Part shown: piece after piece, positions 3,146-15,856 of the stretch
How positions within the stretch are numbered: the first letter of the stretch is position 1
Layout: every line of letters begins with the position of its first letter
Source: Flavobacteriales bacterium
Lineage (GTDB): Bacteria; Bacteroidota; Bacteroidia; Flavobacteriales_C; GCA-002722245
DNA length: 59,184 nt
Reading direction: 5' to 3'
Assembly: GCA_947444925.1 (NCBI GenBank)
Contig: CANFBW010000016.1
Location: forward strand, 1-59,184
Notes under the pieces: model-generated
Databases searched by the model: none
What the model was told of the DNA's origin: nothing
Seen by the model: only the letters and a program-made list of their open reading frames with translations
Program-made: the position numbers and the translations under genes

Positions 3146-3400
3146 ATGAATATTAAGAAGAACATAGCACTCAGTGATTCAGGATTTGTTTTCGATCCTT
3201 CGAGTGGAGATTCGTTTTCAACCAATCCAATTGGTTTGGAGATTATTAAACTACTTCAAAATGGCAAGTCGGCTGACGACATCAAAAAACACATTACCGG
3301 CGCATATATGACCGACGGCGATTCTTTTGAAAAAGATTTTTACGATTTCGTAAACATGCTGCAGAAGTTGAAGATTGCCGATGGCGCAGAAAAAAAATAG
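3146..3400 (+). CDS. PqqD-like small protein
   Basis: 84 aa. The layout fits PqqD/RRE-type winged-helix proteins: an N-terminal beta-strand region (SDSGFVFDPSSGDSFSTN), then helix NPIGLEIIKLLQNGKSADDI, then FEKDFYDFVNMLQKLKIAD. PqqD relatives bind precursor peptides for modifying enzymes, and some act as stand-alone recognition elements. It is the first gene of a same-strand cluster followed by an ATP-grasp ligase and a PLP decarboxylase, so it may present or carry the substrate for them (inference). No conserved serine for a phosphopantetheine arm is evident, so it does not look like an acyl carrier protein. It is preceded by a ~200-bp gap without a clear promoter match. Confidence 0.7.
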   Translation: MNIKKNIALSDSGFVFDPSSGDSFSTNPIGLEIIKLLQNGKSADDIKKHITGAYMTDGDSFEKDFYDFVNMLQKLKIADGAEKK

Positions 3401-3460
3401 TGGGTACCCCAAACACTAACTATGAATAGCGCGACTCAAAACGCATAAAAAGCATTGTAT

Positions 3461-4510
3461 ATGAAAAAGAAAAAATTCACCATTGCCGTCACTGGTCTCA
3501 ATGCCATTGATAGTCCGGGACCAGGAGTTCCTGTAATTCGAGCCCTTCGCGAAAGTAAGCATTTTGATGTGCGCATCATCGGCTTGTCCTACGAGGCCTT
3601 GGAACCAGGTATTTATATGCACGATTTGGTAGATAAAACCTATCAAATTCCTTTTCCGTCATCGGGCATTGACAGCTTGTTAACACGGTTGAAATACATC
3701 AACGACATTGAAAAGATAGACTTGATTATTCCCAACTTCGATGCCGAATTGTTCAGCTTTATTAAGCTTGTAGATACCTTGGAAAAGAAAATGAAAATCA
3801 AGGTTTTTGTTCCCACAATTGAACAATTTGAAGAACGCCACAAAGTAAATTTAGAAGCGTTTGGTAAAAAGCATAAAATAAAAGTGCCTTACAGTAGAAC
3901 AATTTTCAGCACTGCGGAGATACCTGCATTGAAGGATCAGTTCACTTATCCGCTGGTTGTCAAAGGAAAATTTTACGATGCTTCTGTTGCATACACTCCT
4001 GAGCAAGCGGCAAACTATTTTAATAAAATCACTGCCAAATGGGGTTTGCCTATTATCATACAACAGTTCGTTCATGGGCAAGAAGTGAATGTTACTGCGA
4101 TTGGCGATGGCAACGGAAATACGATAGGCGCTGTGCCGATGCGTAAAACTTATATCACCGATAAAGGTAAGGCTTGGGCAGGCATTTCAATTGCCGATGA
4201 CAAGCTCATGAGCATGACAAAAAAGATGATTAAGTCGAGTAAATGGCGCGGTGGTTTAGAGTTGGAAATCATTAAAACAGCAGAGGAGGATTACTATTTG
4301 TTGGAGATTAATCCGCGTTTTCCGGCTTGGGTATATCTTGCTGTAGGTTGCGGACAAAATCATCCGGAAGCCTTGGTGCGAATGGCAATGGGTGAAGAGG
4401 TGAAGCCTTTTAAGAAATACGATATTGGTAAAATGTTCATTCGTTATGCCTACGACATGATAGTAGAATTGAAAGAGTTTGAAAAAATTTCAACTCTTGG
4501 TGAATTGTAG
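3461..4510 (+). CDS. ATP-grasp ligase (carbamoyl-phosphate-synthase/PylC-like)
   Basis: 349 aa cytosolic ATP-grasp enzyme. A Rossmann-like pre-ATP-grasp domain (TIAVTGLNAIDSPGPGVPVI) is followed by an ATP-binding region with the lysine of YPLVVKGK, the hinge QQFVHGQEVNVTAIGD and the metal-binding EINPRFPAW motif. Such enzymes activate a carboxylate as acyl-phosphate and join it to an amine or thiol. Position between a PqqD-like protein and a PLP decarboxylase suggests ligation of an amino acid or related acid (inference). I chose ATG 3461 (MKKKKFTIAV); a TTG two codons upstream is unlikely. Ends 55 bp before the next gene. Confidence 0.85.
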   Translation: MKKKKFTIAVTGLNAIDSPGPGVPVIRALRESKHFDVRIIGLSYEALEPGIYMHDLVDKTYQIPFPSSGIDSLLTRLKYINDIEKIDLIIPNFDAELFSFIKLVDTLEKKMKIKVFVPTIEQFEERHKVNLEAFGKKHKIKVPYSRTIFSTAEIPALKDQFTYPLVVKGKFYDASVAYTPEQAANYFNKITAKWGLPIIIQQFVHGQEVNVTAIGDGNGNTIGAVPMRKTYITDKGKAWAGISIADDKLMSMTKKMIKSSKWRGGLELEIIKTAEEDYYLLEINPRFPAWVYLAVGCGQNHPEALVRMAMGEEVKPFKKYDIGKMFIRYAYDMIVELKEFEKISTLGEL

Positions 4511-4565
4511 TTCTGTTTAAATATCAAGTTTAAAATTCGACTGATAAAATTTAAAAATATACGCT

Positions 4566-5923
4566 ATGAAAAAATTGCAATATGAACGTCCGGTGATCAC
4601 TCGATTAAATACTGGAGTGACCAATAAATTTGGAACAAAAACAGAATATGCTCCAGTGACACATGTCGATGGAAATTTAGTAGAAGGATTGATTGCAAAA
4701 TATGGTTCGCCGTTGTTTGTGATCTCTGAAAAAACCATGCGAAAAACGTATAAAGATGCCAATAGGGCTTTCACTACTCGCTATCCGAAGGTGCAGTTCG
4801 CATGGTCGTACAAAACAAATTACATCAATGCGGTGTGCAATGTTTTTCATCAGGAGGGATCTTGGGCCGAAGTGGTGTCGGGTTTTGAATACCACAAAGC
4901 GCTAAAAAAAATGTGCCGGGAAGCAAAATTATTTTCAATGGTCCCGACAAAACAGAAACCGATTTAAAGTTGGCGATTGAGAACAATTCTTTGATTCACA
5001 TTGACCATTTAGATGAGTTGTACCTCATTAAAGAATTGGCGGTGGAGATGAACAAAAAACCACGCGTTGCCATTCGCGTGAACATGGACACAGGTGTATA
5101 TCCAATTTGGGATCGCTTTGGTTTTAATTATGAAAATGGACAAGCATGGGACGCGATCAATAAAATTATGTTGAACGACAAAATGGAATTGGTTGGTTTG
5201 CATTCACACATTGGTACTTTTATGTTGTCGCCAAATGCATATGGAATTGCCGCTTCTAAACTTTCAGATTTGGCTTTGGGGATTAAGAAAAAATACAAAA
5301 AAAATATTCAGTATTTAGATTTAGGAGGAGGTTTCGCATCAAAAAACACGCTAAAAGGCTCGTATTTACAGGGTGTTGACACGTCGCCAACTTTTGATCA
5401 ATATGCCGAGGCGATTTCAACTGCAATATTGAACGCTGGATTTGTTGAAGATGAATTGCCGCTTTTGCTCTTGGAGTCAGGAAGATCTTTAATTGATGAG
5501 GCGGGCTCTTTGCTGGGAACAGTGATCTCCAACAAACGCTTGTCTGATGGGCGCCGTGCAACGATTATGGATTTTGGTGTGAATATTTTATTTACTTCTT
5601 TTTGGTATGATCACAAAATCAGTCCAGCCCAAGATTTTAGTCAGTACACCGAGGATGCTGTTTTGTATGGTCCTTTGTGTATGAATATCGACGTGATCAG
5701 AGAGAACGTTACCTTGCCACCATTGAAACGTGATGATCACGTAGTGGTGCATACTGTGGGGGCTTATAACATGACGCAGTGGATGCAGTTCATTGCCATG
5801 CGTCCGGCTGTTGTGATGATTGATATGAATGAAAAGGCACATGTTATTCGCAATAGAGAAACTTTAGATTCAATAGAAAGTGCAGAAGTAATGCCTGAAT
5901 ATTTGAAGAAGTTTAAGTTGTAA
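4566..5923 (+). CDS. Fold-type III PLP-dependent decarboxylase (diaminopimelate/ornithine decarboxylase-like), split by a -1 frameshift
   Basis: Two overlapping frames encode one enzyme: 4566-4967 gives the N-terminal part (PLP lysine in AWSYKTNYINAV, then EVVSGFEYHKALKK) and the frame reaching 5923 continues with VPGSKIIFNGPDKTETDLK. The join needs a -1 shift inside the A8 run at 4904-4911; with it the product is about 452 aa and complete. Later motifs are intact: HSHIG, LDLGGGF, ESGR, GPLCMNIDVI with the conserved Cys, and VGAYNMTQWM with the active-site Tyr. The family decarboxylates basic amino acids, and BtrK-type members act on carrier-bound aminoacyl groups. The substrate here is unknown. 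Homopolymer error, decay or real frameshifting could explain the split. Confidence 0.85.
4904..4946 (+). other. A8 slippery run with downstream stem: frameshift site or homopolymer error
   Basis: In the upstream reading frame the run reads A_AAA_AAA (4904-4910), a canonical -1 slippery heptamer. A -1 slip yields AAT GTG CCG, exactly the frame of the downstream half. Six bases later CGGGA (4917-4921) can pair with TCCCG (4942-4946). A missing A in the assembly would produce the same picture. Confidence 0.6.
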
Positions 5924-5931
5924 ATAAATAT

Positions 5932-5959
5932 GAACGGTAGTGCAAGCGCACTACCGTTC
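5932..5959. other. Perfect 12-bp inverted repeat with AAGC loop
   Basis: GAACGGTAGTGC (5932-5943) is exactly complementary to 5948-5959, separated by four bases. It starts 9 bp after the decarboxylase stop and lies 37 bp before the transporter start. No T-run follows on either strand, so it is not a typical intrinsic terminator; it could be an mRNA processing or stabilising hairpin, an operator, or a REP-like element. Confidence 0.8.
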
Positions 5960-5996
5960 TCAAATGAATACGCATTAAATTCGCAAAAAAGACAAT

Positions 5997-8168
5997 ATGA
6001 AATTTTACCGAGACAGTATCGTCAATAGCTACGCACAAATATTTTTTTCAAACCACAAGTGGTTGGCGTATCTGTTGTTGCTTGCAAGTTTCATTGATCC
6101 TTATTTGGGTGTCAGTGGATTGATTGCTGCTGCCGCTTCTGTGTTTTTTGCCAAGTGGATGGGTTTCAATCAGGAAAGTATTCGCAGTGGAATGTATTCG
6201 TACAATTCAATTTTGGTGGGCTTCACGATAGGTGTATTTTACAAATTCTCTTTGCCGTTTTTTGGTATTTTACTTTTAGCGTCCTTATTGACCATGCTGA
6301 TTACTGTTTGCTTGTCGGCTTTTGTAGCGGCATACAGAATTCCATTTTTAAGTTTGCCTTTTATGCTTGGTGTGTGGGCAATATTGCTTGGTGCGCGTGG
6401 ATTTAAAGCTATTGAGCTCAGTGAGCGCGGTATTTATGCGATCAATGATTTGTATAGTTTTTGGGGACCAGATATGGCCAAATTCATGCAAGAAATGGCT
6501 TTGCTGAAATTTCCATTGTTGATCGATGTGTACTTGAAATCTATGGGTGCTATATTTTTTCAATACAATTTATTGACCGGAATTTTAATGGCTTTGGGCT
6601 TGTTGATTTATTCACGCATTGCATTCTCACTATCGGTGTTGGGATTTTTAACAGGGTACTATTTTGTTCAGTTTTTTCAGGGCAATATGACCGAGTTGGA
6701 GTACAGTTATATTGGCTTCAATTATATTTTGTCATCAGTTGCTTTGGGCGGATTTTTTATGGTGCCTTCACTTCGGTCGTATTTGTTGGTGATGGTTTCA
6801 GCGGCCTTGATTGCGTTAAGTATTAGTGCTCTTGGGAATTTCTTTTACGTATTTCAATTGCCTATTTATTCGTTACCCTTTTCAATAGTGGTGATGCTAA
6901 TGATTTATGCATTAAACAATCGCTATTCGATGAATGGTTTGCACATGGTGCAATACCAACAGTATTCTCCCGAGAAGAATTTATATACCTACCACAACCG
7001 CCTTGAGCGTTTTAAAAACGATACGTATTTCCACATTCATTTGCCTTTTTATGGTGAATGGTTTGTCTCGCAGGCGCATGAAGCTGCGATCACACATAAA
7101 GACGATTGGCGTTTTGCTTTTGATTTTGTGATTGCCGATGAAACTCAAAAGACATTTAAAAGTCCGGGTGAAGAAGTGACTGATTTTTACTGCTACAATC
7201 TTCCTGTACTGTCTCCTGCAGCAGGATACGTGGTGACATTGGTGGATGGTATTGTGGACAATGCCATTGGTGAAGTGAATCTTGGTGAAAATTGGGGAAA
7301 TGCTATTGTGATCAAGCACAGCGATTTCTTGTACAGTAAAATTACGCACATCAAAGAAGCTTCATTTAAAGTGAAATTGGGTGACTACGTGAAAAAGGGA
7401 GAGGTCTTGGCAAGTTGCGGTAATTCTGGCCGTTCACCTGAGCCACACATACACTTTCAGGTTCAGTCGACGCCTTTTGTGGGTGCTAAAACATTGAAGT
7501 ATCCAATCAGTTATTATGTTTCGAAACAAAACGAAAAATATACTTTTCATTCTTTCGACTATCCTTTGGAGGGGCAAACGATTTTCAGAATTAATACTAC
7601 TACGTTGCTTAAAAACAACTTTGATTTTGTGCCTGGAATGACCATGGATTTTGCTGTTGATAGAGACGGTGAAAAATCCAATGTTAAGTGGGAAGTCTTT
7701 GTTGATAGCGCTAATCAATCGTATATATTTTGTCATGAAACACAATCGCTTGCCTATTTTGTCAACAATGAAACATTGCACTATTTCACCGATTTTAAAG
7801 GAGATAAAAAATCATTGCTTTACTATTTCTACTTGGGAGCACACAAAATACTTTTGGGTTATTACTACGAACTTGAAGTGAAAGATGTATTGCCTATTGA
7901 TGGATTTTTTACTGGTTTTTCAAAGGTGATTCAAGATTTCGTAGCGCCTTTCGGCATTTATCTGAAAACAGAATATAGCGCAAAGTTCATTGAGATCGAC
8001 GATCCAATGAGTCCAAGTAAAATCCGTATTTCCAGCAGTGCTTTGGTGAAGATTGGTGAAAACGTAAAAAGAAAAATTGAATTTTATTTTGTGCTGAACC
8101 ACAGCAAAAATTTCACAATGACCATTAACGAAGGAAAAATATGCACGCACGTTATCCGCATCGCTTAG
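5997..8168 (+). CDS. Urea-transporter-like membrane protein fused to an M23 (LytM) peptidase domain
   Basis: 723 aa chimera. Residues ~20-310 are strongly hydrophobic with many membrane spans, and contain the urea-transporter-like FNQESIRSGMYSYNSILVG near residue 58. Residues ~365-490 are an M23/LytM metallopeptidase domain with zinc ligands visible in HKDDWRFAFDF and PEPHIHFQVQ, plus GDYVKKGEVLASCGNSG, so it looks catalytically competent. The last ~230 residues are probably beta-rich. UT proteins form channels for urea and related small amides; M23 enzymes cut peptide cross-bridges or act as envelope scaffolds. The peptidase part would be periplasmic. Overlaps the next gene by 28 bp, indicating an operon. 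Whether the channel moves the product of the upstream enzymes is inference. Confidence 0.82.
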   Translation: MKFYRDSIVNSYAQIFFSNHKWLAYLLLLASFIDPYLGVSGLIAAAASVFFAKWMGFNQESIRSGMYSYNSILVGFTIGVFYKFSLPFFGILLLASLLTMLITVCLSAFVAAYRIPFLSLPFMLGVWAILLGARGFKAIELSERGIYAINDLYSFWGPDMAKFMQEMALLKFPLLIDVYLKSMGAIFFQYNLLTGILMALGLLIYSRIAFSLSVLGFLTGYYFVQFFQGNMTELEYSYIGFNYILSSVALGGFFMVPSLRSYLLVMVSAALIALSISALGNFFYVFQLPIYSLPFSIVVMLMIYALNNRYSMNGLHMVQYQQYSPEKNLYTYHNRLERFKNDTYFHIHLPFYGEWFVSQAHEAAITHKDDWRFAFDFVIADETQKTFKSPGEEVTDFYCYNLPVLSPAAGYVVTLVDGIVDNAIGEVNLGENWGNAIVIKHSDFLYSKITHIKEASFKVKLGDYVKKGEVLASCGNSGRSPEPHIHFQVQSTPFVGAKTLKYPISYYVSKQNEKYTFHSFDYPLEGQTIFRINTTTLLKNNFDFVPGMTMDFAVDRDGEKSNVKWEVFVDSANQSYIFCHETQSLAYFVNNETLHYFTDFKGDKKSLLYYFYLGAHKILLGYYYELEVKDVLPIDGFFTGFSKVIQDFVAPFGIYLKTEYSAKFIEIDDPMSPSKIRISSSALVKIGENVKRKIEFYFVLNHSKNFTMTINEGKICTHVIRIA

Positions 8169-9355
8169 TACTTTTTTCTATGCTGTTGCTTGCTGTGAAT
8201 GCTTTTTCTCAGCAAGGCATTAACACGCAAATAGTAGCAAAAAGATCTTACGGAATGTATCTCGCCAAGCAATGGCCTGAACTCATTGTTTACGGTGACT
8301 CTGTGTTGAAGCTGGGCTTTGATTACTACTACATTCGCATGCGTATGGGTATTGCTTATTTTGAATTAAAAAAATACCGCATTGCCGAAGAGCATTTTAA
8401 AAAGGCCATTGCCTTTAATGCTTCTGAAGATTTAGCCTTCGAGTATTTGTATTTTATTTACATCTATACCGATCGTTTTGAAGAAAGCAGAAAGTTGAGC
8501 ACAACATTTTCAAAGGCCTTGAAATTGAAACTGAAAACCGATTCATTGCCTGCTGTTGATTGTTTTACCGCAGAATTTGGAAAAAAAATAAGTAGCAGTG
8601 ACGCTCTGCCAAATGCCAACTATCTTCAATTGGGACTCAGTCATTATATTGCAAATAAGGTTTCGTTGTTTCATGCTTATACTTATTACGGGCAAGGAAA
8701 TGATGATTGGAAGGTGCATCAAAATCAATATTATTTGGGTATGAACCTTCCATTAAAAAGTAGATTTATGTTGTCGGGTTCTTTTCATTTTTTAGAACGA
8801 AACACCTCTTTATATTCTAGTGTTCCTGTGCAAATGAAGGGGCCTTTATTGCCAACGACGCAAGAACGTGCTTTCAACTATGTGGAATCGGTGTCGCTGA
8901 AGAAAAGTTTTAATTATTTCGATGTAAGCGCTGGGTCAACCGTTTTGTGGCTCGACAGTGTGTTTCAATTTCAACACAATGTGTCGACAACTTATTTTCC
9001 TTTCGCAAACAACAGATTGGGTATAGGTGCTGCGTATTACTTGCACAGCAGAGATAATTATGCGAGTGTATATTCAGCTTTTGTTCCATTTGTGTCATAC
9101 AAGCCTACACAGCGTCTAAGTTTGTTTGCCAGTTATTTGAACAACTCAGGTCAAAATATTGCCGAATGGAATGGTTTTGTGGTGAACAATTCTCCTGATC
9201 TTACCACTGGGAAATTTACGATTACTGGCGATTATCATCTGAGCAAGAAGATGGAGGTTTACGCCACCTATCAGTACGAAGACAAGCTTGTTGCAGAATC
9301 GAAAAGCACTTATAATTTCTCCTCTTTTTTTGCAGGCATCAAATACAAACCTTAA
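8141..9355 (+). CDS. Secreted TPR plus outer-membrane beta-barrel protein (YaiO-like)
   Basis: 404 aa. Signal peptide (HRLVLFSMLLLAVNAFSQ, cut near residue 24). Residues ~30-125 hold TPR-like helical pairs (IRMRMGIAYFELKKYRIAEE). From ~150 on, alternating amphipathic strands with many Tyr/Phe/Ser end in SSFFAGIKYKP, typical of an outer-membrane barrel. This arrangement resembles YaiO-family proteins. It starts inside the 3' end of the transporter-peptidase gene, so translation is probably coupled. A role as outer-membrane exit or anchor for the cluster is an inference. Confidence 0.75.
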   Translation: MHARYPHRLVLFSMLLLAVNAFSQQGINTQIVAKRSYGMYLAKQWPELIVYGDSVLKLGFDYYYIRMRMGIAYFELKKYRIAEEHFKKAIAFNASEDLAFEYLYFIYIYTDRFEESRKLSTTFSKALKLKLKTDSLPAVDCFTAEFGKKISSSDALPNANYLQLGLSHYIANKVSLFHAYTYYGQGNDDWKVHQNQYYLGMNLPLKSRFMLSGSFHFLERNTSLYSSVPVQMKGPLLPTTQERAFNYVESVSLKKSFNYFDVSAGSTVLWLDSVFQFQHNVSTTYFPFANNRLGIGAAYYLHSRDNYASVYSAFVPFVSYKPTQRLSLFASYLNNSGQNIAEWNGFVVNNSPDLTTGKFTITGDYHLSKKMEVYATYQYEDKLVAESKSTYNFSSFFAGIKYKP

Positions 9356-9376
9356 ACTAACTTAATACCTACGACT

Positions 9377-9994
9377 ATGAAAACTGTTTTTAAATTATTA
9401 TGTAGCGCAATGCTCTTGATGGGATCAACTTCTGCGCAGGCGCAAGACAACGCTTTAGAAGATGTGTTTACGCAAAGTTACTATTCTGAAAAACAAGGGA
9501 ATTACACACTGGCCATTTCAGCAATGAAGAAAGTGTACGATGCACAATCGTACGAAATAAATTTGCGTTTGGGATGGCTTTCATATTCTGCTGGCATGTA
9601 CAAAGAATCATTGAATTATTACCAAATTGCAGTGGACTTAATGCCTTATTCTATTGAGGCTAAAACGGGTTTGGTTTATCCTGCAGTCGCATTGGGCAAT
9701 ATGACGCAAGTGGTAGAGACGTACCGTAAAATTTTAGAAATTGATCCGCAAAACACCAATGCGAATTACCGCATGGGATACATTTATTACGATAAAAAAG
9801 ATTACCAAAGCGCCCACAATTATTTTGAAAAAGTAGTGAATTTGTATCCCTTCAGCTATGACGGATTACTCATGTTTGCTTGGACAAATTTTCAGATGGG
9901 AAAAACGCGCGAGGCAAAAGTATTGTTCAATAAGGTGCTTCTATTGTCACCATCAGACAAATCGGCTCTTGAGGGATTGTCGTTGATCAAATAA
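9377..9994 (+). CDS. Secreted tetratricopeptide-repeat protein
   Basis: 205 aa. Signal peptide MKTVFKLLCSAMLLMGSTSA followed by AQA|QD. About four to five TPR units fill the rest (for example YRMGYIYYDKKDYQSAHNYF). Periplasmic protein-protein adaptor by family. It follows the barrel gene by 21 bp and closes the same-strand cluster; the next gene is convergent. Confidence 0.8.
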   Translation: MKTVFKLLCSAMLLMGSTSAQAQDNALEDVFTQSYYSEKQGNYTLAISAMKKVYDAQSYEINLRLGWLSYSAGMYKESLNYYQIAVDLMPYSIEAKTGLVYPAVALGNMTQVVETYRKILEIDPQNTNANYRMGYIYYDKKDYQSAHNYFEKVVNLYPFSYDGLLMFAWTNFQMGKTREAKVLFNKVLLLSPSDKSALEGLSLIK

Positions 9995-12445: not shown

Positions 12446-15400
12446 TCATAATTTAGTAATTCTAATGTGTTTAATTTTTTTAGTGGTTTTGGCCGATACA
12501 ATATACATTCCAGCATTGTAAATAGCATTGGTGTTTATTTCAATTTTATTGCCGCCATCTGCGTTTGTTTCATATTCATTTGCGTACAATATTTTTCCAT
12601 GCATGTCGCTAATTTCTATTGAAACATTTTCTTGCGATTCATATCCCGATAGCTCCAGTTCAAGTAAATTGTTTGACAACGGATTTGGATATACAGCGAT
12701 TTCGTGTTTGTCGTTTTCACTGTTTTCCTCATCCTCAACTGCTGTTGAAATGTCACTGGTGAATTTCATCCAATTGATATCCCATCCATTCGCAAGCACC
12801 AAAAGTTTTAGCTTTTGTATACCAGCAGAAAGGCTGAGGTTGTTTGATGTCGTTGTCCAATTTGACCAGCTATTCGTGTTTGGCAGTGCAGTGGTGCAAA
12901 GTACATTGTTGCCTGCTAAGATTTGCAATTGTCCACTAGACGAAGTGGAAGCAATGCGGAATTCAACTTTGTAAGTGCCGCTTGAAAGCACATTTACGTA
13001 ATATTCCATGTAGTCGTTGGGATCGATCCAACCACAGGTTAATCCACCGCTAACATCATTTGTTGGAGCTGTTTTTATACCGTACATGCTGTTCCAGTTT
13101 TCGGTTTGAATGATACCTGGTATTGGCAGTGCTTCTGGCGAAAGGTAAACAGTGCTTGAAGTGGTTTGACTGTTTAAATTGTCTGTTACTACCGCTGTGA
13201 TGGAATAAAATCCTTTGGCGGAAGTTATCGTGTAATTGTAGGGTGCATTGTACACAGTGCCCAATAAGGTGCTTCCATTGTAAAAACTAACGCTGCTAAT
13301 TGTGTCGCCGGTATCAGTGGCTGTGGCTTTCAGTATAACTGAACTTCCCGGAAAGTAGGTTGAATTGTTTGCAGGAGAGGTGATTTTCACGTTCACATTA
13401 TTTGCAGTAAATGGCACTACTGTACTTGTTGTTTTACAAGCGGAATTATCACTCGCGACTGCAGTAATGGAATAATTGGCTGTAGGTATTGCATTGAAGG
13501 TGTAGTTGAAAGGCGCATCAATTGTGGAGCCCAATAGTGTTGTTCCATTGTAAAAACTAACGTTGGTGATTTTTCCGTCGATGTCAGATGCATCGGTGGT
13601 GATGGTAAATTTAGTTCCTGATTTTACAATTGCATGGACGGTTGGTGATGTGATATGAATGCTTGGACAGATATTGGGTTTCACGTAGTTTGGATCTTTA
13701 GAAACATCATACAAAAATCCCCACATACAGGTATTCCATACGTTTGTTTCCCAGGTGGTAAATTCGTTAACGGATATCAGCGACCAGCCGTCTGACCAAC
13801 GGCGCTGACCTGGCATTTGACCTGCTTGCTTGTCCCACGTCGGATACACTTTGTCGCTCACAACGGCTTGGTAATCAATTTTGCTGCGGCTTTCCATTGG
13901 TCCGTAGGTTACAATGCCTGGCACTTTTCCGTACTTTGTCCACCAAGAATCCAGATGACATGTGCTCTGGGGTTGGTCTTTTCCCAACCCAGTAGTAAAT
14001 GATTTTCCCAATGGATTTAATCCTAGCGCATAGTTCGCGAAATTGCTGGCTAGGTTGTAGTATTTTTGGCGATCAACGGATGATACCGACAATTTGTACA
14101 TGTAACAAGGTGCTTCGGCGTACAGGCCTTGTGCCGACAATGCTCCCCACCCAATAAATTTTGTTGCCCCTTGTGCATAGGGATAAATTGCTGGGTTCCA
14201 AGCCATGTATCCACCCTCATCGGCTGATGTTTTTAGTGTAGCAATTAGGTTGGATTTTAGCGTTGCATCGGTATTGAATTTCGTGAACAGATAACTTGCG
14301 AAATGAGAAGCTTTGATTTTTGCCGCCGGGTTGCCCCCATAGTATTGGTCGGGCCAGTTTCCGCCATTTACAATGAGTTCGTTGGCGAGCTGAATGTATT
14401 GTAAATGATACTTGTTTTGTGCGTCAATTTGTGCATTTCCACTCGCGCTTGCCAAATACAATTGCAGTGCCGCATACATCAGATAAGATTTAGGACTATT
14501 GTATCCTTTATTTTTGCAATAGTTCCATGCTAAAACTGCTCTGTTCAACAATGCGGCCGCATGCACTGGGTCGTAAGGTTTTACCAATCGGGATGCTTGC
14601 GCAAAAATTCCTGCTGCTTGCAAGGTAACATAATCGGCAACTTCATAAGTGCCATAGCTTCCTCGTTTGTCGTCGAAGTCCGCTCTGTCAATGCCATAGC
14701 CGGCATCACTACCGTTGTCGGTGCCTTGCATCACTCCGCCGTATTCTGATGGATCATTGGTATTGCTGGAGTCGAGTTGTAAATTTTCCCACAGAAGAGT
14801 GGCCCACAAGGCCTCATCTAAAAAATCAGGAAGGCCATTTCCCGATTCGGGAATGTTGTATTGAGCATCCACAAAATGTTCGGGGAAAGCGTCGTAAAAA
14901 TTAAGCAATAGTATTGGTATGATGGTGTGCATTGGTCGGCGGTCATAATCACCTGCGTCGTGATAACCTCCAATAACTTTGTGCGTTGACGCGTTTGCAG
15001 GAACATCCACCCAATCTGCGTCCCATATATTTTTTACAAAAGCAACTTCCTCGTGGCAAACGCCACGTGTGTAATGCGTGAAAGGCTCTTCAAGAGCGAT
15101 GCCGCAGCGTTGATGGTACATTCCTCGACTGTGTACTTTTGCAATTTCCTGAAGGTATTTATTGCCCACGCCAAAAGAGTAGGAACGACCAATGCCGCTG
15201 ATAGAGATGTAATAGGGGCCACCTTCGGGCAAGGCAGATAGATCAATTCGGTAAACAAATTCGCCTGAACTGGAGCCGGAGAGAGCAGTGTCTTTTCCCC
15301 AATAGCTAAGTGTACCAGTTAGCACATTAGTGTTTGTTGCTGAATCAACAATGGCGAAGGCAGGTAATGTCGCCAGTTGTTTTGATCCCAGGTTTCCTAG

Positions 15401-15856
15401 AAAAATACCAAAGTTGGCATATTTGTCTGTTGAAAGCGGTGCATATCCAACTTGATTTACTTTTATCGATTCGCAAAAGGTGATCTTGTCATTGAATTTG
15501 TAATTGATGTTGCCATAGGGCGAAGTGATAGCATAGGTGCTGTCGTTCATTAGGTTTTTAGGCAATACGAGATAAATGTGGTGGTGGGTGGTGATGGGAT
15601 AGTAGTTCATCCAGTTCGCTAAAACCTTTACTTCTTCTTCGTCGCGCACATAAGAGTATCGTCCGATTTCGTTAGGTGCTGCGCCGTTTATTTTCCAACC
15701 AGAAAGGTTGGGGATTAATTTTTCTTCTCCCGGAGGAGCTTCAAGCACAACAACCAAAACATTGTTGCTTGCCGTTTTTACTTCAAATATGTTTGCTGCG
15801 TAAACGCAAAAATTACTGAGTGTCGAGAGACAAATGATTAGGATTTTTTTATTCAT
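12446..15856 (-). CDS. Secreted multidomain GH9 cellulase with CBM6-like module and T9SS sorting domain
   Basis: 1136 aa. Order of parts: signal peptide (ICLSTLSNFCVYA); an N-terminal extension; a cellulase N-terminal Ig-like domain (~125-225, starting KVNQVGYAPLSTDKY); the GH9 (alpha/alpha)6 domain (~230-725) with base Asp in GGYHDAGDYDRRP near 300 and acid Glu in SVNEFTTWE near 698; two bacterial Ig repeats (VSFYNGTTLLGST and VSFYNGSTLLGTV); a CBM6-like module (~910-1030, IPGIIQTENWNSMYG); and a T9SS type A sorting domain (VYPNPLSNN, ending IKHIRITKL). Predicted to be exported by the T9SS, attached or released at the surface, and to cut beta-1,4-glucan. No PUL partners (SusCD) are adjacent. 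Confidence 0.93.
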   Translation of the reverse strand: MNKKILIICLSTLSNFCVYAANIFEVKTASNNVLVVVLEAPPGEEKLIPNLSGWKINGAAPNEIGRYSYVRDEEEVKVLANWMNYYPITTHHHIYLVLPKNLMNDSTYAITSPYGNINYKFNDKITFCESIKVNQVGYAPLSTDKYANFGIFLGNLGSKQLATLPAFAIVDSATNTNVLTGTLSYWGKDTALSGSSSGEFVYRIDLSALPEGGPYYISISGIGRSYSFGVGNKYLQEIAKVHSRGMYHQRCGIALEEPFTHYTRGVCHEEVAFVKNIWDADWVDVPANASTHKVIGGYHDAGDYDRRPMHTIIPILLLNFYDAFPEHFVDAQYNIPESGNGLPDFLDEALWATLLWENLQLDSSNTNDPSEYGGVMQGTDNGSDAGYGIDRADFDDKRGSYGTYEVADYVTLQAAGIFAQASRLVKPYDPVHAAALLNRAVLAWNYCKNKGYNSPKSYLMYAALQLYLASASGNAQIDAQNKYHLQYIQLANELIVNGGNWPDQYYGGNPAAKIKASHFASYLFTKFNTDATLKSNLIATLKTSADEGGYMAWNPAIYPYAQGATKFIGWGALSAQGLYAEAPCYMYKLSVSSVDRQKYYNLASNFANYALGLNPLGKSFTTGLGKDQPQSTCHLDSWWTKYGKVPGIVTYGPMESRSKIDYQAVVSDKVYPTWDKQAGQMPGQRRWSDGWSLISVNEFTTWETNVWNTCMWGFLYDVSKDPNYVKPNICPSIHITSPTVHAIVKSGTKFTITTDASDIDGKITNVSFYNGTTLLGSTIDAPFNYTFNAIPTANYSITAVASDNSACKTTSTVVPFTANNVNVKITSPANNSTYFPGSSVILKATATDTGDTISSVSFYNGSTLLGTVYNAPYNYTITSAKGFYSITAVVTDNLNSQTTSSTVYLSPEALPIPGIIQTENWNSMYGIKTAPTNDVSGGLTCGWIDPNDYMEYYVNVLSSGTYKVEFRIASTSSSGQLQILAGNNVLCTTALPNTNSWSNWTTTSNNLSLSAGIQKLKLLVLANGWDINWMKFTSDISTAVEDEENSENDKHEIAVYPNPLSNNLLELELSGYESQENVSIEISDMHGKILYANEYETNADGGNKIEINTNAIYNAGMYIVSAKTTKKIKHIRITKL

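Follow-up and report, generated by a model that had tools for sequence, protein, structure and literature searches.

Two described pathways join an amino acid to a partner and then decarboxylate the conjugate. Butirosin synthesis uses an ATP-grasp ligase, BtrJ, and a decarboxylase of the alanine racemase (AR) fold, BtrK, together with an acyl carrier protein (ACP), BtrI. In the FigA/FigC pathway of Francisella, which leads to rhizoferrin, the N-citrylornithine decarboxylase FigC (FslC) is paired with a synthetase of the nonribosomal peptide synthetase-independent siderophore (NIS) type. FigC, SbnH, AcsE, MccE, and BtrK form a group of enzymes that act on conjugated amino acids (PMC7857480). 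Here we describe a six-gene cluster at 3146-9994 of a 59,184-nucleotide contig (CANFBW010000016.1) from a Flavobacteriales bacterium; the whole stretch is referred to below as the window. The cluster encodes a PqqD-like protein, an ATP-grasp ligase, an AR-fold decarboxylase, a urea transporter (UT) domain fused to an M23 peptidase (UT-M23), and two envelope proteins with tetratricopeptide repeats (TPR).

The ligase and decarboxylase would follow the same "conjugate, then decarboxylate" logic as BtrJ/BtrK and FigA/FigC, yet the cluster belongs to neither pathway, as it has no carrier protein and lacks the citrate residues. With the butirosin genes it shares an ATP-grasp ligase and an AR-fold decarboxylase of the conjugate-acting group; it differs in having a PqqD protein of the recognition-element type instead of an ACP and in its link to a channel and envelope proteins. 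It differs from the FigA/FigC pathway in that the neighboring ligase is an ATP-grasp enzyme and not an NIS synthetase. The initial annotation of this stretch knew of no pathway with such a set, and we likewise found no description of the combination in the open-access literature (subscription papers were outside the search). The system is built from known domain families.

Conservation and gene content of the cluster

The conserved neighborhood on which the initial annotation had staked its proposal was found. Among 295 genomes surveyed in the class, the ligase (presence taken at E ≤ 1e-60) occurred in 60 and UT-M23 in 64, with both in 57, the ligase alone in 3, and UT-M23 alone in 7 (Fisher p 4e-49, overstated in that genomes were treated as independent). 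In each of the three ligase-only genomes, a fragment of UT-M23 lies at the end of a contig. The two genes lie no more than 6 kb apart in 51 genomes from 24 families. Matches spanning most of UT-M23 came from 15 of 60 relatives, with two further weak partial matches, and 11 of 14 fetched loci had the families in a single order and on a single strand between differing flanks, the barrel being undetected in one of the 11.

A second collection, scanned with the ligase alignment, yielded more than 580 relatives. Among the 80 best loci, PqqD adjoins the ligase in 78, the decarboxylase comes next in 77, and UT-M23 is present in 73. Five of the seven loci lacking UT-M23 are at or near a contig end and one has 0.7 kb left, so that only L188 is clearly without it. 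The order PqqD, ligase, decarboxylase, UT-M23 recurred in 20 further loci, 19 of them from other classes, down to about 30% identity; in one of these, 1.9 kb separates PqqD from the ligase. The TPR protein is kept beside UT-M23 and the barrel in most loci. At the level of open reading frames (ORFs), the genes after UT-M23 in L231, L233, L235, and L245 are a TPR gene and next a barrel-like ORF of 272-296 residues; L239 has these two in reverse order. The ratio of nonsynonymous to synonymous substitution rates (dN/dS), computed against two congeners, was near 0.02 for the three cytosolic proteins and about 0.13 for the TPR/beta-barrel protein, the fastest-evolving of the six. Because the order is kept across several classes and the three cytosolic proteins have dN/dS values near 0.02, the cluster must matter to its hosts. 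In one locus (L159, 6243-8576), genes judged by eye to encode multicopper-oxidase-like and thioredoxin-like proteins lie between the decarboxylase and UT-M23.

Table 1. Features of the cluster, with positions in the window
Feature	Coordinates	Strand	Basis
PqqD-like protein of the recognition-element type, 84 residues	3146-3400	+	PF05402, 30.9 bits (cut-off 23.4)
ATP-grasp ligase, 349 residues	3461-4510	+	PF15632/PF02655 above cut-off; ATPgrasp_Ter 37 bits
AR-fold decarboxylase dependent on pyridoxal phosphate, frame split	4566-5923	+	PF02784/PF00278 (Orn_Arg_deC_N/Orn_DAP_Arg_deC), 72/47 bits
Run of eight A, decarboxylase frame lost	4904-4911	+	DNA and comparison with relatives
UT-M23 fusion	5997-8168	+	PF03253 (UT) 201 bits; PF01551 (Peptidase_M23) 51 bits
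TPR and predicted outer-membrane beta-barrel protein	8141-9355	+	TPR matches only below Pfam cut-off; C-terminal sequence features
Periplasmic-type TPR protein, 205 residues	9377-9994	+	TPR_2 73 bits; signal-peptide-like N-terminus

The six genes announced by the initial annotation were all recovered at their coordinates and on the + strand (Table 1); what did not stand was a single decarboxylase frame. The PqqD, ATP-grasp, decarboxylase, and UT plus M23 assignments all exceeded Pfam cut-offs. ATG 3461, and not TTG 3455, is the most likely start of the ligase, and the 3' end of the UT-M23 gene overlaps the TPR/beta-barrel gene by 28 bp.

The decarboxylase is read as two ORFs, 4566-4967 and 4889-5923, offset by one base at the A run, and one extra A there would restore the frame. 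A single intact frame of 453-467 residues was present in 11 of 11 relatives read. The part after the break has a dN/dS of about 0.02 against the two congeners, similar to that of the ligase, and the enzyme is therefore considered functional in this lineage. The simplest account of the break is an error in sequencing or assembly, or else a lesion of very recent origin. In addition, the run has the form of a slippery sequence, A AAA AAA, and a -1 slip on it would bring the frame back, although use of such a slip is not claimed. One-base losses in A runs were seen in three genomes, here and in the UT-M23 genes of L240 (about 8999-9004) and L102 (about 7709-7714); two of the three genomes are single-contig assemblies, in which homopolymer errors are a likely cause. 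The apparent fission of UT from M23 in L240 was considered as evidence for a cytosolic M23 domain and rejected, since the junction is a one-base contraction of the A run with no new gene start. The break in L102 is of the same kind.

Upstream genes of regulatory type accompany many of the loci. Of the 68 loci whose upstream sequence exceeds 1.2 kb, 36 carry, within 3.5 kb and on the same strand, a homologue of at least one of the five upstream genes tested (AraC-type, 20; LytTR-type, 13; hybrid histidine kinase, 8; TPR, 5; response regulator, 4), and none of the five was found in the loci of the two nearest relatives (L140 and L141). The cluster in the window is preceded by SnoaL-like and carboxyltransferase genes. 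In L147 (5124-9745), a TPR gene, a LytTR regulator, a response regulator, and a CHASE3 hybrid histidine kinase with Hpt lie directly upstream of PqqD, and comparable gene sets at several further loci suggest that the cluster has signalling of its own. Elsewhere in the window, positions 1-356 hold degenerate Ala/Lys/Glu-rich tandem repeats, which have periods of 15-96 and lie in a coding region truncated where the contig begins, and 12446-15856 on the - strand encodes a protein of 1136 residues that, judged by eye, resembles a secreted glycoside hydrolase of the family 9 type carrying a sorting domain at its C-terminus.

The decarboxylase, the ligase, and the PqqD-like protein

The closest solved relative of the decarboxylase is FigC/FslC (7kh2, E 4e-68), ahead of the diaminopimelate decarboxylases (DapDCs; E 2e-49) and BtrK (E 1e-30). 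Its active-site motifs, GPLCMNID, HIGT, and GAYN, resemble those of FigC (GPSCMQHD, HIGT, and GAYN), whereas DapDCs have G(G/P)(L/I)CE, HIGS, and GAYG. In FigC, the Met after the catalytic Cys stands in for the residue that binds the free side-chain amine, and H357, R387, and N389 bind citrate (PMC7857480). The cluster enzyme shares this Met but has Ile375, Gln405, and Met407 aligned with the three citrate-contacting residues, and it scores below the curated FslC cut-off (238 versus 500 bits). Because the FigC-type Met is kept and the citrate contacts are not, the simplest reading is that the substrate is a conjugate without a citryl group, and the enzyme is predicted to be an AR-fold decarboxylase of the conjugate-acting kind. 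The likeness to FigC rests on motifs and profile scores, and the position of FigC is poorly supported in the decarboxylase tree, in which one sequence from the genome of the window is still misread.

That the cluster enzymes might group with ordinary LysA or SpeA had been raised as an objection, which the data do not bear out. The cluster decarboxylase falls below the LysA cut-off (210.7 versus 297.9 bits, TIGR01048) and has Met in place of Glu after the catalytic Cys, and a separate LysA is encoded elsewhere in the genome (393.6 bits, same cut-off) along with two more lysA-like matches below the cut-off.

The ligase retains K168, E208, E269, E282, N284, and R286 in all 33 relatives aligned, and these are the catalytic residues expected of an ATP-grasp enzyme. 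Its AlphaFold2 model (predicted local distance difference test [pLDDT] score 88) has 2pn1 as the nearest solved structure (Z 28.7), a protein for which we know of no established function. The ATP-grasp proteins resembling carbamoyl phosphate synthetase (the PRK12767 family, including 2pn1) are the closest group in fold and sequence, but the ligase is far under their curated cut-offs (101 versus 390 bits). PylC and amino-acid ligases are among its many structural matches, which do not fix the substrate.

The profile of the PqqD-like family matched TbiB1 (E 4e-12), a lasso-peptide recognition element for ribosomally synthesized and post-translationally modified peptides (a RiPP recognition element, RRE). 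Residues A8, S10, G13, F14, F16, G21, S23, N27, and G30 are invariant in 30 relatives. With E values up to 0.1 allowed, Pfam gave no ACP family, and PF05402 was the sole match. An ACP- or LysW-like carrier was considered and rejected, the C-terminal tail being variable, with no obvious attachment residue and no conserved signature. The comparison with RRE and ACP profiles called for by the initial annotation thus came out on the side of the RRE, and the cluster is predicted to contain a RiPP recognition element. The earlier analogy with BtrI/BtrJ/BtrK had cast the PqqD-like protein as a covalent carrier in place of the ACP. This part of the analogy is not supported, whereas "ligate, then decarboxylate the conjugate" remains well motivated by the FigC-like enzyme. 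The match to the sequence profile of lasso-peptide RREs (TbiB1 and TfuB1) does not extend to the rest of those systems, since the cluster has no precursor peptide, B2 protease, or lasso cyclase. A search that picks up PqqD in 70 loci found no conserved precursor ORF, nor any other conserved small ORF, upstream of, between, or downstream of the cluster genes; a gene located far away or of very short length would escape it. L215 has two PqqD-like genes of the cluster type (842-1090 and 6355-6615), the additional copy lying about 5.5 kb upstream from the one in the cluster. Two further PqqD-family proteins are encoded in the genome of the window (G000:C113:1276-1473 and G000:C5:47922-48119) and, because they score 72 and 68 bits, much above the cluster copy, they point to other RRE-using loci.

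The UT-M23 fusion and its alternative enzyme partners

UT-M23 comprises a UT domain (residues 6-305), an M23 domain (about 366-490), and a C-terminal domain. Its AlphaFold2 model (pLDDT 89) gave, with Foldseek, a template modeling score of 0.85 between the UT domain and dvUT as well as M23/LytM-type matches. The M23 metal ligands and catalytic His (H367, D376, H441, H451, H484, and H486) are invariant in 37 relatives. The C-terminal domain (about 7554-8168, residues ~520-723) is conserved, beta-rich, and confidently modelled, with a near-invariant Cys579 and no Pfam match.

Both pore repeats are present with their LPxxSxPF motifs. We take urea selectivity in dvUT to depend on Gln24, Glu187, and two Thr. 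UT-M23 shares the fold of UT-B and dvUT (3k3f, 3k3g) and keeps the first-site Gln in 30 of 37 relatives, but differs from them in having Ala or Gly at the Glu187 position in 37 of 37, mostly Ser for the pore Thr, and the fused M23 domain. Urease is encoded in only 1 of the 64 UT-M23 genomes and is absent from the other 63, a distribution that rules out urease-linked urea uptake. In UT proteins both termini are cytosolic. No membrane-like segment was found in the linker after the UT domain, and the charge pattern (Lys + Arg versus Asp + Glu) is 5.9 to 3.0 in this linker and 2.5 to 4.2 in the central loop. Because UT homology and the charge pattern place the C-terminus inside, the M23 domain is predicted to lie on the cytosolic side. 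The TPR/beta-barrel protein has a signal-peptide-like N-terminus and, across relatives, beta-signal-like C-termini, the barrel being called without a profile match. A defense system was also considered and rejected, as PADLOC gave no match apart from a weak generic TPR.

The seven UT-M23 genomes without the ligase and decarboxylase described above (type A) include one that is 68% complete with a truncated contig (G212). The other six all encode a fold-I decarboxylase of the Orn/Lys/Arg type (type B). In three of the six, a VOC gene, this decarboxylase, and an ATP-grasp protein of 495 residues, unlike the type A ligase, are divergently oriented beside UT-M23. A fourth has the VOC and decarboxylase genes divergent beside UT-M23 up to the contig end, and in a fifth (G172) all three genes adjoin a UT-M23 fragment on a short contig. 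In total, 63 of 64 UT-M23 genomes have type A or type B enzymes, and the type B decarboxylase occurs in just 1 of 57 type A genomes (p 6e-7, overstated for the same reason as above). PqqD is missing from type B loci.

Five type B UT-M23 proteins were compared, and they group in a single clade with a support of 1.0. Their pore has Leu at the Gln24 position, where two type A proteins are also changed (Leu and Ile), and LKAY(S/T)xSF in place of LPxYSLPF, a change in none of the others compared. An unrelated ligase and decarboxylase pair thus seems to have replaced the type A enzymes, apparently once, with the channel kept and altered. Of all the observations, this exchange hints most strongly that the product or substrate of the enzymes is handled by the channel, though it is a single event.

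The type B decarboxylase is also found in 16 genomes without UT-M23, and in the 14 of these that were read it mostly adjoins the ATP-grasp gene. Three loci (L126, L130, and L132 in G169, G082, and G229) share a conserved cluster of class-III aminotransferase, C-N hydrolase, VOC, fold-I decarboxylase, ATP-grasp protein of 495 residues (NCBIfam PRK06524), C45 hydrolase, and aldehyde dehydrogenase, which looks like an undescribed degradation route for polyamines or amino acids.

Proposed function and alternatives

We tentatively favor, at somewhat below an even chance, reading this locus, conserved across the phylum Bacteroidota, as an operon that makes and moves a small molecule. The cytosolic ATP-grasp enzyme would couple an amino acid either to another small molecule or to a peptide that the PqqD/RRE-like protein presents, and the FigC/BtrK-type decarboxylase would strip the alpha-carboxylate from the conjugate to give a small amide-linked amine. 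The UT domain, with its altered pore, would pass this product across the inner membrane, perhaps after the fused cytosolic M23 domain had hydrolyzed a bond and so freed it at the channel mouth, and the periplasmic TPR and TPR/beta-barrel proteins would provide a route across the outer membrane. The sequences themselves establish gene order, co-occurrence, intact catalytic residues (in the ligase, the M23 domain, and, for the decarboxylase, its relatives), the UT fold, the FigC-like Cys-Met motif, and the enzyme replacement in some genomes, whereas the order of reactions, export over import, a cytosolic M23 domain, the identity of the product, and the role of PqqD are predictions of the reading.

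Several points weigh against this proposal. UT channels are passive, so that sequence does not set the direction of transport, and M23 domains usually act on peptidoglycan outside the cytosol. The precursor searches found no exported precursor around the cluster. The type B exchange amounts to approximately one evolutionary event, and the 14 type B loci read without UT-M23 often lie near genes for class-III aminotransferase, C-N hydrolase, C45 hydrolase, and aldehyde dehydrogenase, a catabolic-looking setting.

A bolder form of the make-and-move proposal, which we consider rather unlikely, is that UT-M23 represents a new kind of transporter, in which a urea-type channel carries at its cytosolic mouth a hydrolase that frees a small molecule for export. 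Such a transporter would serve the phylum-wide pathway, in which AraC-type or two-component regulators are frequent companions, and a decarboxylated amino-acid amide, serving as a signal, toxin, or surface group, would be supplied by either of two unrelated enzyme pairs.

Uptake and catabolism is the least improbable of the rival explanations, although it too is unlikely. The barrel and UT domain would import a small amide or polyamine-like nitrogen compound, M23 would cleave it, and the ligase and decarboxylase would process it. The bidirectionality of UT channels is compatible with import, and because the type B clusters without UT-M23, with the neighbors just named, look like polyamine or γ-aminobutyrate (GABA)-type metabolism, this rival stays alive. 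No such catabolic gene is conserved beside the type A cluster, however, urease is nearly absent, and an ATP-consuming ligase with a conjugate-type decarboxylase suits synthesis better.

It is quite improbable that the cluster remodels the envelope, with a periplasmic M23 domain cutting peptidoglycan and the enzymes making an amine for attachment to the wall or surface. The family matches of the M23 domain are to peptidoglycan hydrolases, and the TPR and barrel proteins belong to the envelope, but UT homology and the charge pattern put the C-terminus of UT-M23 in the cytosol and the operon has no transferase gene.

A RiPP pathway, in which the RRE would bind a ribosomal precursor for modification by the ligase and decarboxylase and M23 would act as leader peptidase, is very doubtful. 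The PqqD-like protein is closest to lasso-peptide RREs, and decarboxylases of the MccE type have peptide conjugates as substrates (PMC7857480). Against this stand the lack of a conserved precursor ORF around the cluster in a search able to recover PqqD, a urea-type pore too narrow for a peptide, and the absence of PqqD from type B loci.

That ordinary housekeeping genes (LysA/SpeA, PurK/CarB, and urea transporter types) are neighbors by chance can be dismissed, for although every domain family is common by itself, the order is conserved across classes amid varying flanks, both anchors occur in 57 of 295 genomes and are adjacent in 51, and the genome has its own LysA.

The cluster thus joins a ligase and decarboxylase module in the style of natural-product synthesis to a urea-type channel-peptidase fusion. 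The natural exchange of its enzyme half for an unrelated pair provides a genetic handle on the cargo of the channel. Discovery of the product would add a hitherto unknown metabolite to those of the Bacteroidota and could reveal a new coupling of hydrolysis to transport.

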